A DNA stretch of 42,476 nucleotides from Candidatus Doudnabacteria bacterium RIFCSPHIGHO2_01_48_18 (GCA_001777515.1 MFEF01000031.1:1-42476), one strand, 5' to 3'. Shown: positions 764 through 29,904, numbered from the stretch's first letter. Notes: a model not told the origin generated them from the letters alone. Numbers and translations: made by a program.

Positions 764-851
764 TGATCTCCGCTGCCGGCAATCCAAAAAACCGGCAAAT
801 TTCAGAAAAGCCCGAAGCGCCGGATGATGCGTTAAGGGCATAGGAGGGAAG

Positions 852-1916
852 ATGGTTGAAGCAAAGTGGGGTCAAGGGATTGATGCCACATATTGGAAAA
901 GGATTGTTTCCGGTCTGGTTGAATACCTGACCGGAAAAAACACTCCGGCAATCATTTATCACGGGTGGCAAAAGGATTTGCCTCCCTTTGACGGCCGCCT
1001 CCGGCTGGTGATTGGCAGGTCGAATGATTGGCCAATCATTGAGGGTCAGGTGCGTGTGGAGGGAATCTACCACACTCACTGGATCCCGGGCGGTAACTAC
1101 ATCAGGATCTCCGGCTTGCCGGAGTATCCTGATGACGATTCCAGCGTCCTTTTGGTAGTTGTCAAAAGAATTCTGGAGGAACTGCTCCCGCAAGTCGTGG
1201 AGCAGGATCCGGAAAAAGTAGCCGCAATGATTGCGGCGCAAAAAGAGGCCGAACGGATTCGGTCGCGTGAGGCGTATGTCAAAGAGTGCGCCAAGCGAGT
1301 AGATAAAACCGTCAGGGAGACTGAAAAAACCCTGGCGGAAAAGCAGAGGTCAGTCCCGGGGCTTCTGCAAGCATACATTCGTGGAGTCCGGGAGATCGCT
1401 GGGCTGGAGCGCAAGCTCGCCCAGATCAAGGCGTCAACCCAAGGCGAGCTGGACAAGATCGGCGAAGAGTTCGATAAACTCGCCTCTCTCCCGAAAGTCC
1501 AGCGGGTCGAAGTCGCAGACGGGGTTATCAAAGTTTTTACCGAAACCCTTTTCTGCACTGACGACCGCACCGGAAAGACCCACGAGATCGGGGCTTTCCG
1601 GATTGATGTCTACACAAATGGCTCCAATGACGGGGTGCGTTGGACCAACCTGTCGAGGAAACTCGACGGGATGTACGCGCCCCACGTCGATGCGAACGGC
1701 AAGGCTTGCCTGGGCACCGCTGCCACAGGTTTTTGCGAATTCCTTGCGGCCCAGGAGTACGCGTTGGTGGCGATGTATGCCATCAATTTCGTAGAGTCGG
1801 TTAACACCGACGACCAATGGGGCCGCAAAATCGATCTCTGGCCGGTGGCAGGACAAGCCCCGGCTGAAACCGTCAACCCAGCACCCGAACCGCGGGTGCG
1901 AACCTCGAGGTGGTAA
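852..1916 (+). CDS. E2-like (UBC-fold) protein with coiled coil
   Basis: The 354-residue protein has an undefined N-terminal domain (about 1-110), a long charged coiled coil (about 115-205), and a C-terminal region resembling an E2 ubiquitin-conjugating fold: helix, several strands, then P277-H278-V279, G283 and C286 in the order H-V-x-x-x-G-x-x-C-L-G, followed by helices. H278 and C286 match the E2 HPN and catalytic Cys positions. By family knowledge such a Cys would take a Ubl thioester from the E1. An AGGAGGG site 3 nt before the ATG supports the start. The stop is 1 nt before the JAB gene, so the two are probably translationally coupled. The neighbours (JAMM peptidase, ThiF, beta-grasp protein) strengthen an otherwise motif-based call. 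Confidence 0.75.
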   Translation: MVEAKWGQGIDATYWKRIVSGLVEYLTGKNTPAIIYHGWQKDLPPFDGRLRLVIGRSNDWPIIEGQVRVEGIYHTHWIPGGNYIRISGLPEYPDDDSSVLLVVVKRILEELLPQVVEQDPEKVAAMIAAQKEAERIRSREAYVKECAKRVDKTVRETEKTLAEKQRSVPGLLQAYIRGVREIAGLERKLAQIKASTQGELDKIGEEFDKLASLPKVQRVEVADGVIKVFTETLFCTDDRTGKTHEIGAFRIDVYTNGSNDGVRWTNLSRKLDGMYAPHVDANGKACLGTAATGFCEFLAAQEYALVAMYAINFVESVNTDDQWGRKIDLWPVAGQAPAETVNPAPEPRVRTSRW

Positions 1917-1917
1917 C

Positions 1918-2649
1918 ATGAAATTTTCAAGGGGGTTCGCCCCCCACGAATTCGGAAAACGCGTGGAAATTGTCTCTGGAGCGCCGCGGGTGCTTTTTAC
2001 CCGCGACGCATTCCAGGACAACTCGCACCTCGTGGACATTTGTCCGGCGGAAGTCGGGTGGATGGGCCACGTCCGCCGCGTCGGAAACGATTTTCTGATT
2101 CACCGGATTTTTTTGGTGGAGCAGGAAGTGTCGGGCTCGACGTGCGAGCTCGACTCCGAGGCACTCGCGGGCTACGCGGTTTCGTGTCTGTCCGAACCGG
2201 ACGGGGAGGAGCTTTTCAACTCCATCCGTTTCTGGGGGCATTCCCATGCAAATATGGGGACGTCCCCGTCAGGACAGGACGAATCGCAACTCCACGATCT
2301 GGCGAATCGTGGCGGAGACTTTTTCCTGCGGGGAATTTTCAATAAATTGGGAAGAGCCGAGTTCACCATCGCTCTCCCATCCGCAGGAATTTGGCTCCGC
2401 GACGCCGAGTGGCAGGTTGTTGACGAGGTCAATGAGGCCCGCAAGGCCCATTGGCAGAATCTCGTCAGCGAAAAAGTGCGGGAGAAGGTCTTCGTCAGCC
2501 AGTTTTCGTCCGAATTTTATGGGCGAAATTGGCGCAACGGCGACGAACCCGCACTGCCTGCCCCTGCGACAAGCCGCTTGGTTTTTAGCGGCGGACCGGA
2601 AACGTTGAAAACGAAAGGAGGGCGGAAGAAATGGGAACGGAAATCGTAA
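1918..2649 (+). CDS. JAMM/JAB (Mov34/MPN) metallopeptidase
   Basis: The 243-residue product carries a complete JAMM signature: E45 in the AEVGWMG strand, then H108-S109-H110, seven residues, S118, two residues, D121. These are the zinc ligands and catalytic residues of RPN11/AMSH-type isopeptidases. In bacterial ubiquitin-like operons this protein matures or removes the Ubl. The last 70 residues are basic and lack a recognisable fold. The start follows GAGGTGG at about 1906-1912. Its 3' end overlaps the E1 gene by 19 nt, a sign of co-translation. The domain call is firm; the substrate (Ubl precursor or conjugate) is inferred from context. Confidence 0.88.
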   Translation: MKFSRGFAPHEFGKRVEIVSGAPRVLFTRDAFQDNSHLVDICPAEVGWMGHVRRVGNDFLIHRIFLVEQEVSGSTCELDSEALAGYAVSCLSEPDGEELFNSIRFWGHSHANMGTSPSGQDESQLHDLANRGGDFFLRGIFNKLGRAEFTIALPSAGIWLRDAEWQVVDEVNEARKAHWQNLVSEKVREKVFVSQFSSEFYGRNWRNGDEPALPAPATSRLVFSGGPETLKTKGGRKKWERKS

Positions 2650-3335
2650 ATCCCATCCGCCACCTTAGCGTTTTCGACCCCGACGCGTTCGGCGAACGTC
2701 GGGTAGATGTGATCGGCGCGGGCGCAACTGGTTCGCGCGTAGTCCTGTCCCTGGCCAAGCTTGGGGCTCGGAATTTGCATGTGTGGGATTTCGACAGTGT
2801 CGAATCCCATAATATTGCAAATCAGGCATTCTCGATGTCTCACATCGGGATGCCGAAAACCCAGGCTTTGGCCCAGGTCGTGGAGACCGGGACAGGGCTG
2901 ACCATCACTGTCCACGAGGAGAAAGTGGACGGCACTCAATCTTTGGGTGATGTAGTTTTTCTCCTGACTGACACGATGGCGTCTCGAAAAGAGATTTGGG
3001 AAAAGGGTTTGAAACTCAAACCCCGGACTCAATTACTCATCGAGACGCGAATGGGCGCGGCCGAGGGACGGGTTTACAGCCTGTCCCCGAGCCGCCGCCA
3101 GCACATCTCCGAGTATGAACAGACGTTCTACTCGGACGCAGTAGCCGAAACGTCGGCCTGCGGCGCGTCAGTCAGTGTCGGACCAACAGCAGAGTTTTTG
3201 TCAGGCCTCGCAGTCTGGCAATTTCTCAAATGGTACAAATTCGATCAAGCGGGAGAAGGAGACCCGCCCGAATTTGAAAGCATTTTTGGGCTCACGCCCA
3301 TGCTGTTTTTCTGCGACCGAAGCCTGCCGTGGTAA
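2631..3335 (+). CDS. ThiF/E1-like Ubl-activating enzyme
   Basis: The 234-residue protein is a single adenylation domain of the ThiF/MoeB/E1 superfamily. It shows the nucleotide loop G29-A-G31-A-T-G34, the acidic DFDSVE segment (D53, D55) followed by N61, K76 and D114-T-M-A-S-R. C177 in ETSACGAS is the likeliest Ubl-accepting cysteine. It lacks the two CxxC zinc pairs of MoeB/ThiF, which fits the reduced E1s of bacterial conjugation operons. By family knowledge it would adenylate the C-terminus of a beta-grasp protein and pass it to an E2. GAAAGGAGGG precedes the ATG inside the end of the JAB gene. The next gene follows only after 423 nt. Confidence 0.87.
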   Translation: MGTEIVNPIRHLSVFDPDAFGERRVDVIGAGATGSRVVLSLAKLGARNLHVWDFDSVESHNIANQAFSMSHIGMPKTQALAQVVETGTGLTITVHEEKVDGTQSLGDVVFLLTDTMASRKEIWEKGLKLKPRTQLLIETRMGAAEGRVYSLSPSRRQHISEYEQTFYSDAVAETSACGASVSVGPTAEFLSGLAVWQFLKWYKFDQAGEGDPPEFESIFGLTPMLFFCDRSLPW

Positions 3336-3362
3336 CGGTTGCATTGCACTTTTTGTGCGCTT

Positions 3363-3398
3363 GTCCCGCACCATTCAGTTTTTAGCATGGTGCGGGAC
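3363..3398 (+). other. 12-bp perfect hairpin between E1 and Ubl genes
   Basis: GTCCCGCACCAT and ATGGTGCGGGAC form an exact 12-bp stem with a 12-nt loop, 28 nt after the E1 stop. There is no T-tract after it, so it is not a classical terminator. It may protect the 3' end of the E2-JAB-E1 mRNA, or attenuate or process the transcript before the Ubl gene. This is inference from position. Confidence 0.55.
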
Positions 3399-3469
3399 GT
3401 TGGAGAGGGAGTAGGTTTCGGCATGATTTCCTACCCCTCTTCCTTCCCTTTTAGAATTATTTTTTATTT

Positions 3470-3533
3470 GTCATTGCGAGCCGTACTCGGCGCGGCAATC
3501 TCGAGATTGCTTCGGGAGTACCCTCGCAATGAC
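3470..3533. repeat. GTCATTGCGAG palindromic repeat
   Basis: Arms GTCATTGCGAG and CTCGCAATGAC (11 bp, exact) enclose a smaller internal palindrome around GCAATCTCGAGATTGC. Repeats with these arms are widely dispersed in many bacterial genomes and are usually intergenic. Here the repeat lies in the long gap between the E1 and Ubl genes and may explain why the operon is not contiguous. Confidence 0.7.
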
Positions 3534-3758
3534 GGAGTAGAAAATATTCTGCAAGGGGAGGCAAACGCGCAGTATGGCGAGTGCTTCTACTAGTTACAAA
3601 TTGGGGCGCTGACCCAGGGGAGAATAGCCCAAAAGACAGTCGTGTTGCACGGTCACGCGGCGAGGTGTTTAAGCTCGCTACAACGTCAGGAAAATTCCAT
3701 AAAACCTTTGCAAGGTTTCCTTACCAGAAATGGAAGGTTGGGATTGGAGATTAAAATC

Positions 3759-4691
3759 ATGCCAACTTCAACTGTTGTTAAAATCGGGATGGTCGGCGCG
3801 GCCATCCACACTGAAACGTTCGTCCCTGGCTCCACCGTGGAGCAAGCAATCAAGCAGGCGGGTTTCAACCCGACCGGCTTCGATTGCATAGTGAACGGCG
3901 CGAAGGTCACTGACCTCTCGCGCCCCGCGGCCGCCGGCGACATGGTTATCTTGTCCCGCCAGGTCAAGGGCAATGGCCTCGACCTGGCCTACGCGACGAT
4001 CCACCTCACGACCAAGGATGGTCGTGAGCAGCAGCAACTCATGGACCCGGCGGAGCACCCGACTGTCCGCACAGTGCTGGATCAGGCGGGGATCAAAGTT
4101 GTCCACGGCGAGGAAGGCGTCGAGGACGGCACTGGTGACCTCGTTGACCTCGACGAGGAAGTTCACGACGGTATGTATTTGAGGATCGTTGTTTCCTACC
4201 CGGCTCCGGTTGCGGGGGAAGACGACGAGCAGGCCGCTCGCGACCTCGCTCGTGCTGCAGCGATAGAGGAGGCAGAAGAATTGCCTCCGGGATATGGGCC
4301 TCCTGCCGACCCCGGATCTGGTATCAAGGTCGTGAGCCGGGACCCCGTAGCTATCCGCAAGGATGCCGAAGGGTTCGCTGCCGCGGCCGTGGCCAACCGC
4401 GAGGAGGCCGCCCGTCTTCTTGACGAGGCGAACCACCTTGCGGCGAAGGCGTCGATCTACAAGGCGGTTGCCGCCGAGATCGAAGGCGCGCTCCAGGATT
4501 TTGAGCGGGCGAAGGATTACCTTCGCAAGCTCGGGATTCCGACCAACGCGCCGGTAACAGCGGCTTTGAAGCAGGGCCTCACGGCTCTGCCGAAAAAGAC
4601 GCTCGTCCAGATCGCGGAAGCGATGGAAGTGGAGGTTGCCAAGACGGCAACCAAAGCCAACATCGCGACTGCGATCCTCGCGGCCGAATAA
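3759..4691 (+). CDS. Beta-grasp (ubiquitin-like) protein with Rho-N/SAP-like tail
   Basis: I start at the ATG giving MPTSTVVKIG, with a weak GGAGA upstream; an in-frame GTG at 3642 would add 39 unlikely residues. The 310-residue product begins with a beta-grasp-like domain (about 5-70: two strands, helix TVEQAIKQAG, strands ending MVILSRQVKGNG). A second strand-helix-strand region at about 77-147 may be another beta-grasp domain. An acidic, proline-containing linker (150-190) and a helical segment (about 198-258) follow. The last 40 residues (LPKKTLVQIAEAMEV to TKANIATAILAAE) resemble Rho-N/SAP/HeH helix pairs that bind nucleic acid. There is no terminal di-glycine, so conjugation would need processing or another chemistry. 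The Ubl role is inferred from fold and position after E2, JAB and E1. Confidence 0.65.
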   Translation: MPTSTVVKIGMVGAAIHTETFVPGSTVEQAIKQAGFNPTGFDCIVNGAKVTDLSRPAAAGDMVILSRQVKGNGLDLAYATIHLTTKDGREQQQLMDPAEHPTVRTVLDQAGIKVVHGEEGVEDGTGDLVDLDEEVHDGMYLRIVVSYPAPVAGEDDEQAARDLARAAAIEEAEELPPGYGPPADPGSGIKVVSRDPVAIRKDAEGFAAAAVANREEAARLLDEANHLAAKASIYKAVAAEIEGALQDFERAKDYLRKLGIPTNAPVTAALKQGLTALPKKTLVQIAEAMEVEVAKTATKANIATAILAAE

Positions 4692-6999: not shown

Positions 7000-7076
7000 C
7001 TCTCTTCCGGGGCGGAAATAGTTAAGACTTTTATCGTAAACGAAAGTTTGCGGCAAGAGCTCTCCTACTTAATTTA

Positions 7077-7174
7077 TCCAGCACCTTCCAGAATACCCCG
7101 CAGCTTGCTGCGGGGATGAATGGCTCAATATAGCCTTCCTGCGGGGTGCAATACCCCGACAGGAAGGTGCTGGA
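7077..7174 (+). mobile_element. 98-bp MITE-like element, copy 1
   Basis: The element begins TCCAGCACCTTCC and ends with its exact complement (13-bp terminal inverted repeats). Both sides carry TTTA, consistent with a 4-bp target duplication. Inside are two GC hairpins: CCCCGCAGC/GCTGCGGGG and CCTTCCTG...CAGGAAGG. It has no coding capacity, so it would need a transposase in trans; none is in the window. By eye it is identical to copies 2 and 3. Confidence 0.8.
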
Positions 7175-7183
7175 TTTATTTCC

Positions 7184-9488: not shown

Positions 9489-9529
9489 AAGGTAGTAATT
9501 CCTTCGGGAGTTCCTACCTTTTCTTTTTT
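9489..9529 (+). terminator. Rho-independent terminator
   Basis: AAGGTAG..TTCC and GGAG..CTACCTT form an imperfect stem capped by a TTCG tetraloop, followed by TTCTTTTTT. The T-tract runs into the TTTA that borders MITE copy 2, so the element entered at the end of the terminator. Confidence 0.75.
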
Positions 9530-9530
9530 A

Positions 9531-9628
9531 TCCAGCACCTTCCAGAATACCCCGCAGCTTGCTGCGGGGATGAATGGCTCAATATAGCCTTCCTGCGGGG
9601 TGCAATACCCCGACAGGAAGGTGCTGGA
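9531..9628 (+). mobile_element. 98-bp MITE-like element, copy 2
   Basis: This copy has the same 98 bp as copies 1 and 3 by eye, with 13-bp terminal inverted repeats and TTTA on both sides. It lies in the same orientation as copy 1, 2.4 kb away, between a terminator and a 53-codon ORF. Confidence 0.8.
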
Positions 9629-9650
9629 TTTATTATGATAAAATAGCTTT

Positions 9651-29472: not shown

Positions 29473-29547
29473 GGGTATGTAGCTCAGTGGTAGAGCACGT
29501 CACTGATAATGACGGGGTCGAAGGTCCGATTCCTTCCATACCCACCA
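29473..29547 (+). tRNA. tRNA-Ile(GAT)
   Basis: All arms fold: acceptor GGGTATG/CATACCC, D-arm GCTC/GAGC, anticodon stem CGTCA/TGACG with loop CTGATAA (anticodon GAT), T-arm GAAGG/CCTTC. The discriminator A and CCA are encoded. It stands alone rather than within an rRNA operon. Confidence 0.93.
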
Positions 29548-29560
29548 CCAGGGGTCGCTT

Positions 29561-29791
29561 ATGAAAATTATAATTGGTTTAGCTGGCATTGTTATCGGTA
29601 TCTTACTGGTTGTGAAATCCTACTTTCTAACTAGTACATTTGGACAGATCAGTTTTGCGGAAAAATATTTAGGATCTGGCGGTACATATACATTCTATAA
29701 ATTGCTCGGCATTGCTTTTATAGTGTTATCTGTACTTTATATGTTTGATGTTTGGCATTTTAGTGTTCCAATTCCTCAAACGGGCCCTTAG
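29561..29791 (+). CDS. Small two-TM membrane protein
   Basis: The 76-residue protein has two membrane helices (about 2-22 and 43-64) and a short loop FGQISFAEKYLGSGGTYTFYK. A weak AGGGG site precedes the ATG, which is 13 nt after the tRNA-Ile CCA. The topology resembles small conserved membrane proteins of unknown role. It may be expressed from the tRNA transcript. Confidence 0.55.
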   Translation: MKIIIGLAGIVIGILLVVKSYFLTSTFGQISFAEKYLGSGGTYTFYKLLGIAFIVLSVLYMFDVWHFSVPIPQTGP

Positions 29792-29800
29792 CTCATTTGG

Positions 29801-29904
29801 CCCGCCCACCTCTTTTGGGGATGTAGCTCAGTTGGTAGAGCACTACATTTGCAATGTAGGGGTCAGGGGTTCGAATCCCCTCATCTCCACCAGAGGTGGG
29901 CGGG
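29801..29904 (+). repeat. 13-bp inverted arms flanking tRNA-Ala
   Basis: CCCGCCCACCTCT (29801-29813) and AGAGGTGGGCGGG (29892-29904) are exact complements placed on either side of the tRNA. In a precursor transcript they would extend the acceptor stem into a long helix; the right arm even includes the last A of CCA. Such flanking helices guide processing of rRNA precursors; for a tRNA this is unusual. Confidence 0.7.
29817..29892 (+). tRNA. tRNA-Ala(TGC)
   Basis: Acceptor GGGGATG/CATCTCC (one G-T pair), D-arm GCTC/GAGC, anticodon stem CTACA/TGTAG with loop TTTGCAA (anticodon TGC) and T-arm with GTTCGAATC. CCA is encoded. Length is 76 nt. It lies within the 13-bp inverted arms described above. 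Confidence 0.94.

Follow-up and report, generated by a model that had tools for sequence, protein, structure and literature searches.

Within a 42,476-nt stretch of DNA from Candidatus Doudnabacteria bacterium RIFCSPHIGHO2_01_48_18 (GCA_001777515.1 MFEF01000031.1:1-42476), hereafter the window, we confirmed four plus-strand open reading frames at positions 852-4691, encoding in order an E2-like conjugating enzyme (E2), a JAMM metalloprotease (JAB), an E1-like adenylating enzyme (E1) and a ubiquitin-like modifier (UBL). Sequence comparison and structural models suggest that they form a complete, reversible ubiquitin-like protein-conjugation cassette, a reading to which we assign a probability of about 85%. 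The features of the locus are as follows.

844..849, + strand: ribosome-binding site (RBS) of the E2 gene, in the AGGAGG region, with the letters ataggagggaagATG
852..1916, + strand: E2-like conjugating enzyme, 354 amino acids (aa); ATG at 852, AGGAGG RBS ahead
1918..2649, + strand: JAMM/MPN+ metalloprotease (JAB), 243 aa; E45, H108-x-H110, S118, D121
2631..3335, + strand: E1-like ThiF-family adenylating enzyme, 234 aa; one adenylation domain, Cys C177
3336..3758, no strand: 423 nt separating the E1 and UBL genes; repeat-like stretch at about 3470-3540, read from the sequence
3759..4691, + strand: putative ubiquitin-like modifier (UBL), 310 aa; from AlphaFold, Foldseek and ThiS matches in relatives
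3966..3974, + strand: K70-G71-N72, conserved end of the modifier domain, from alignment; linker aa 72-77 after it

The JAB gene starts 1 nt past the E2 stop and overlaps the E1 gene by 19 nt, and an AAGGAGG RBS lies upstream of E1. An initial annotation of this DNA had described the genes as being in order and mostly overlapping. The order stands, but the second description is true of only three of the four genes, E2, JAB and E1, because 423 nt separate the UBL from E1; this gap may hold a separate, putative promoter for the UBL gene. The UBL stop at 4691 was correct. As its start we prefer the ATG at 3759 to the GTG at 3642 of the earlier reading, since the beta-grasp domain and the homologues begin there.

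When searched as single sequences, E1 alone was recognisable (Pfam ThiF, 1.7e-18). E2 and JAB gave no convincing match in Pfam, NCBIfam or PADLOC, E2 gave none in the PDB, and the UBL had no match over the cut-off in Pfam, NCBIfam or PADLOC. The motif reading of these three genes therefore needed independent support, and their assignments rest here on family alignments of relatives rather than on single-sequence searches. All of the residues of E2, JAB and E1 named in the initial annotation were present and were conserved far above chance. Across divergent relatives, the nearly invariant residues were almost only the catalytic ones (E45, H108, H110, S118 and D121 of JAB, H278 and C286 of E2, and C177 of E1).

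The ThiF/E1 domain proposed initially was borne out by the Pfam match, by a nucleotide-binding domain and by the expected Asp, Lys and Cys (D53, K76 and C177), all three invariant in five sequences. C177 aligned with the ThiF cysteine in ERNCRTAGVVGP, and the E1 profile matched MccB, MoeB, ThiF and UBA5 in the PDB. The genome encodes a second ThiF-family protein of 397 aa (L142, G000:C30:2798-3991), whose neighbours are AMP-ligase-like and nitroreductase-like proteins and a dehydrogenase, a biosynthetic-looking cluster unrelated to the cassette. Similarly, JAB carries the full JAMM/MPN+ signature (E, H-x-H, x7, S, x2, D), as had been claimed, and its residues were invariant in 18 relatives, where I140 was the only other invariant position. 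The JAB profile matched archaeal and yeast Rpn11 and BRCC36 in the PDB (E 0.003-0.07), the best match being 6fju, an N11-like protein structure, and Pfam Prok-JAB matched 5 of the 18 relatives weakly.

E2 consists of an N-terminal alpha/beta part (aa 12-116), a long helical arm (aa 120-211) and a C-terminal UBC domain (aa 216-330), which contains the active site, P277-H278-V-D-A-N-G-K-A-C286-L-G. Residues T230, H278, C286, G288 and D321 were invariant in an alignment of 32 sequences, for none of which Pfam gave a convincing match. The AlphaFold model (mean pLDDT, the predicted local distance difference test, 82.9) placed the UBC part, at about 90-98, after the long helix, and the three best PDB matches of this model in Foldseek were all E2s, at weak E-values. 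In a profile-profile comparison with four eukaryotic E2s, hhalign gave a score of 38.2 (E 6.5e-6), as compared to a maximum of 18.7 in 40 column shuffles, 12.3 for the reversed profile and 12.7-16.8 for the other three families. This alignment paired hPHV..nG..ClG with yHPN...nG.iCLd, and LesvN..D with LldpNPDD. The UBC-like fold expected around C286 was thus recovered by both approaches, and the comparison marks E2 as a genuine UBC relative. Its catalytic Cys follows an HPN-type motif in the form [HA]-P-H-[IV]-x3-G-x2-C-L-G, with His for Asn. Eukaryotic E2s have the same spacing, H-P-N-x4-G-x2-C-L as against [HA]-P-H-x4-G-x2-C-L here, and share the downstream N-x-x-D motif; they differ in having their catalytic Asn where His stands here, in identity (about 20%) and in that the UBC domain here is fused behind a long helical arm, the coiled coil that had rightly been singled out as an unusual arrangement. 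A second E2 paralogue occurs at L108-L119, among them the Melainabacteria loci with an Hsp100 gene described below. In most cases its catalytic His or Cys is gone, as in the inactive E2 variants of eukaryotes; at two of these loci (L112, L117) it is fused to the active E2.

The fourth protein had been read as a beta-grasp protein with an unusual tail, and both descriptions hold. Its AlphaFold model (pLDDT 80.5) contains two beta-grasp domains in tandem, the first at aa 1-72, ending ...RQVKGN, and the second at aa 79-145, followed by a long helix (aa 196-257) and a small helical SAP/Rho_N-like domain at the C-terminus (aa 266-309). The lowest confidence, under 50, fell at aa 72-77, directly after K-G-N. 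Foldseek matched the model to linear di-ubiquitin, ISG15 and the talin FERM domain with a probability of 1.0; ThiS was matched by 9 of 23 UBL relatives (best 7.5e-7), and SAMP2 was also matched by relatives. The tail (window 4550-4688) is similar to nucleic-acid-binding domains of the Rho_N/SAP/HeH kind (Rho_N E 0.11; phrog_38661 E 0.0018), and the whole tailed architecture is shared with one bacterial relative, L123.

The UBL lacks the canonical C-terminal Gly-Gly of ThiS/ubiquitin-like modifiers. N72 was invariant in 23 alignment rows, and among 91 domains reaching the model end, 78 ended in Gly-Asn and five in Gly-Gly, the Asn aligning with the second-Gly column of those five. After Gly-Asn, 18 of the 78 domains stop at Asn, 17 have one extra residue, six have two to four, and 37 run into further units or tails; the residue following Asn varies freely. 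This free variation fits a position just outside the mature end. In the tandem (poly-) UBLs of relatives, K-G-N stands at every unit boundary, which implies a processing protease. A mature modifier ending in Asn, so that E1 and E2 would activate and transfer a Gly-Asn rather than a Gly-Gly C-terminus, is a possibility that we hold only tentatively from these alignments. We lean to the alternative that JAMM cuts between Gly and Asn and leaves a single terminal Gly.

From four families with intact catalytic residues and a conserved order, and from the models, we infer thioester transfer, a cleavage site, targets and a role as follows. JAMM would mature the UBL by a cut at K-G-N, which would free the second domain together with the nucleic-acid-binding-like tail. 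E1, through C177, would adenylate the C-terminus of the first beta-grasp domain and capture the UBL, and E2 (H278/C286) would take it over as a thioester on C286 and hand it on to target proteins; E1 or the target is probably held by the long helical arm of E2. Direct transfer from E2 to target is assumed, no E3 having been seen. JAMM would also strip the tag from targets.

The source genome is 919 kb in size and, as had been proposed, resembles genomes of the Candidate Phyla Radiation (CPR); relatives of the cassette occur in Kerfeld-, Falkow-, Buchanan- and Moranbacteria. Apart from one weak match, the E1 gene was not found in the genomes sampled from its own genus, family and order, and across the phylum it is rare (9 of 380 genomes, best identity 58%). 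It is frequent in viral contigs, where a five-sequence profile found 80 loci. Iterated profiles of the four families were run over the surroundings of these viral E1s and of the first loci from whole genomes. The complete set was present in 48 of 79 distinct loci, despite contigs ending early, most commonly in the order E2-JAB-E1-UBL or UBL-E2-JAB-E1 (the latter in 15 loci) and often with two E2 genes. A large terminase was detectable in 17 of 36 contigs tested. Cultivable phage relatives include Xanthomonas phage PhiXhv-12, in which an E2-family protein is encoded next to the ThiF gene, and phages of the Flavobacterium FpV4 type. Two outcomes had been named beforehand as speaking against a conjugation pathway, the lack of UBC and beta-grasp folds and the lack of a conserved gene order in relatives; neither occurred, and the four-gene synteny is conserved as predicted. 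The bacterial carriers are Melainabacteria/Obscuribacterales and, within CPR, Falkow-, Moran-, Buchanan- and Kerfeldbacteria. Only E1 was seen in Kerfeldbacteria, where a 4.4-kb contig holds a solitary E1 between repeat-like stretches (L107:718-1419) and none of the other three genes. CPR cassettes adjoin housekeeping genes such as uvrB/uvrA, enolase and groEL (translations read by eye).

The GC content of the cassette is 0.555-0.62, as compared to 0.485 for the window beyond 8 kb, and in the E1 tree the window's sequence falls together with those of Melainabacteria and Kerfeldbacteria, the surrounding set including phage sequences as well. Both observations indicate horizontal transfer, and the genome probably acquired the cassette in this way. 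More broadly, the sequences point to a large clade, centred on phage genomes, that large phages and bacteria (CPR, Melainabacteria) have exchanged. The clade is unnamed in Pfam, NCBIfam, PHROGs and PADLOC, a search of BFVD returned uncharacterised phage proteins only, and a search of the freely accessible literature found no paper describing it.

The neighbours of the relatives offer clues to role. In eight Melainabacteria loci (L108-L116), an Hsp100/Clp-type AAA+ gene lies directly downstream of E1 on the same strand (e.g. L109:6868-9348; AAA_2 8.7e-73); on inspection, its product has no middle domain and the usual ClpP-binding tripeptide was not seen. This Hsp100 is a possible candidate for a dedicated unfoldase of the tag, recalling the pairing of ubiquitin with Cdc48. 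As a general feature of the clade the link was rejected, being confined to Melainabacteria and present neither in CPR loci nor in the window. In a single phage group (L011, L013), the cassette is flanked by genes for an SbcD-like phosphoesterase and an SbcC/Rad50-like ATPase, and a reverse transcriptase lies downstream of E1 in 18 loci of another phage group (e.g. L087:9021-10211; RVT_1 2.9e-19). These differing neighbours suggest different targets in different hosts. Within the literature and databases searched, the [HA]-P-H-[IV]-x3-G-x2-C-L-G active site, the Gly-Asn boundary in place of Gly-Gly and the Hsp100/Clp unfoldase adjoining the Melainabacteria cassette appear to be new. Elsewhere in the window, two identical 108-nt direct repeats (7073-7180 and 9527-9634) enclose a PIN-domain toxin-like gene, a small upstream gene and a methyltransferase gene. 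Adjacent tRNA-Ile and tRNA-Ala genes, the usual spacer pair of rRNA operons, lie at 29473-29892; Rfam reported no rRNA within the window.

The cassette had been likened to the PRTRC module and to Bil operons. The four shared functions stood up to comparison, whereas membership of either system did not, and we regard it as very improbable that the cassette is just a divergent form of PRTRC or of the Bil defence system. PRTRC is operon class 6d of Iyer et al. 2006 (PMC1779556), and plasmid loci (L104, L133-L138) served for comparison. It likewise has a UBL, an E2 with G-x-x-C-x-G, a JAMM and a single-domain ThiF E1 in one operon on mobile elements; its order C, F, B, A, ThiF parallels the UBL-E2-JAB-E1 order of 15 relatives' loci, and its ThiF is homologous to E1 (hhalign probability 99). 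However, the PRTRC/6d E2 has a conserved His downstream of Cys and none upstream (PMC1779556), whereas H278 lies upstream and is invariant in 32 rows. The other hhalign probabilities were 16.7 for E2 and PRTRC B, 8.8 for JAB and PRTRC A, and 0.2 for UBL and PRTRC C; E1 scored 39.1 bits against TIGR03736 (cut-off 144.75), and PRTRC E1s split off in the E1 tree by a branch of 2.56. No ParB-type, PRTRC E or PRTRC F gene was among the window neighbours, and the relatives have other neighbours. Bil operons, ordered A, B, C, D (PMC11354881), likewise encode a modifier, an E2, a JAMM protease and an E1, in the UBL-E2-JAB-E1 order seen in relatives. The Bil modifier has two Ubl domains and a JAMM-processed C-terminus; two beta-grasp domains were modelled here too, but the conserved boundary follows the first of them, and JAMM would be expected to expose the modifier C-terminus. 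In contrast, BilD joins an inactive and an active adenylation domain to a Cys domain (PMC11354881), whereas E1 here has one ThiF domain in 234 aa. BilB has a CEHH motif with His downstream of Cys (PMC11354881), whereas E2 here is without CEHH and has invariant H278 before and D321 after C286. The Gly-Asn modifier boundary and the mostly phage-borne clade also differ from Bil. Since the defining features of PRTRC and those of the Bil E1 and E2 are absent, we place the cassette, on sequence comparison, in a distinct, uncatalogued clade of bacterial and phage ubiquitin-like conjugation cassettes that would function like PRTRC and Bil and is a member of neither. The ubiquitin operon of Caldiarchaeum subterraneum (PMC5654768) also combines E1, E2, ubiquitin and an Rpn11-like JAMM; here, unlike there, no RING E3 was recognised, the E1 is small and ThiF-type, and the UBL is ThiS-like.

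That the same cascade serves anti-phage defence, as for Bil and CBASS (cyclic-oligonucleotide-based anti-phage signalling system) Cap2/Cap3, would accord with its sporadic, horizontally moved distribution, like that of defence genes, and with the defensive role of analogous bacterial systems (PMC10097602, PMC11153139, PMC11354881). Cap2/Cap3 share E1, E2 and JAMM activities and similarity in the E1 domain (PADLOC E1-E2, 4e-12); Cap2 joins E1 and E2 in a single chain, encoded beside a CD-NTase, whereas here E1 and E2 are separate genes, accompanied by a UBL of their own, and no CD-NTase or effector was recognised near the window cassette. PADLOC returned nothing informative on E2, JAB or UBL, its matches to E1 were generic CBASS E1-E2 ones, the nearest neighbours of the window cassette include no defence genes or defence island, and most relatives are carried by phage contigs themselves. 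Phage defence thus found no supporting context, and we consider this role unlikely. A phage-derived relic, no longer used in the source genome, would match the sporadic distribution, the phage affinity and the 423-nt gap, but the catalytic residues are intact, RBSs are present, there are no frameshifts, and several other CPR genomes retain complete cassettes beside housekeeping genes, so that we judge it improbable. More doubtful still is a small-molecule or peptide pathway, with a MccB/ThiF-type E1 and a ThiS-like carrier that JAMM would trim, after the pattern of some sulphur-carrier systems. The best PDB matches of the E1 profile (MccB, MoeB, ThiF) and the ThiS/SAMP2-like UBL agree with it; however, a UBC-type E2 with conserved His and Cys accompanies most loci, no acceptor enzyme lies alongside, UBLs are tandem and tailed, and such carriers end in Gly-Gly, which the UBLs here mostly do not. 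No ThiG over the cut-off was found in the genome, which makes thiamine sulphur transfer unlikely, and a thiamine pathway was rejected.

Several points weigh against the reading as a conjugation cassette. The Foldseek E-values for E2 are weak (0.06-0.16), and its profile, searched against PDB sequences, was topped by designed ankyrins, with E2s at E 0.12 and above; the ankyrin matches were judged an artefact because they are confined to a short VN-x-x-D-x-x-G stretch. In the window the UBL and E1 genes do not adjoin, the UBL is without the canonical Gly-Gly, and support for the window's place in the E1 tree is only moderate (SH-aLRT 81-92). The chemistry of the cascade is predicted from sequences and models.

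Few operon types of bacterial ubiquitin-like conjugation are known, and these are mostly tied to defence or plasmids. The clade described here would add a separate, sizeable set in large phages, CPR and Melainabacteria, with an E2 active site close in layout to those of eukaryotic E2s and a modifier that breaks the Gly-Gly rule. If the mature modifier does end in Asn, a ubiquitin-like cascade with non-glycine chemistry would operate across phages and small bacteria. All of the proteins are small enough for reconstitution, and the origins of ubiquitin cascades and their use by phages thereby become testable.

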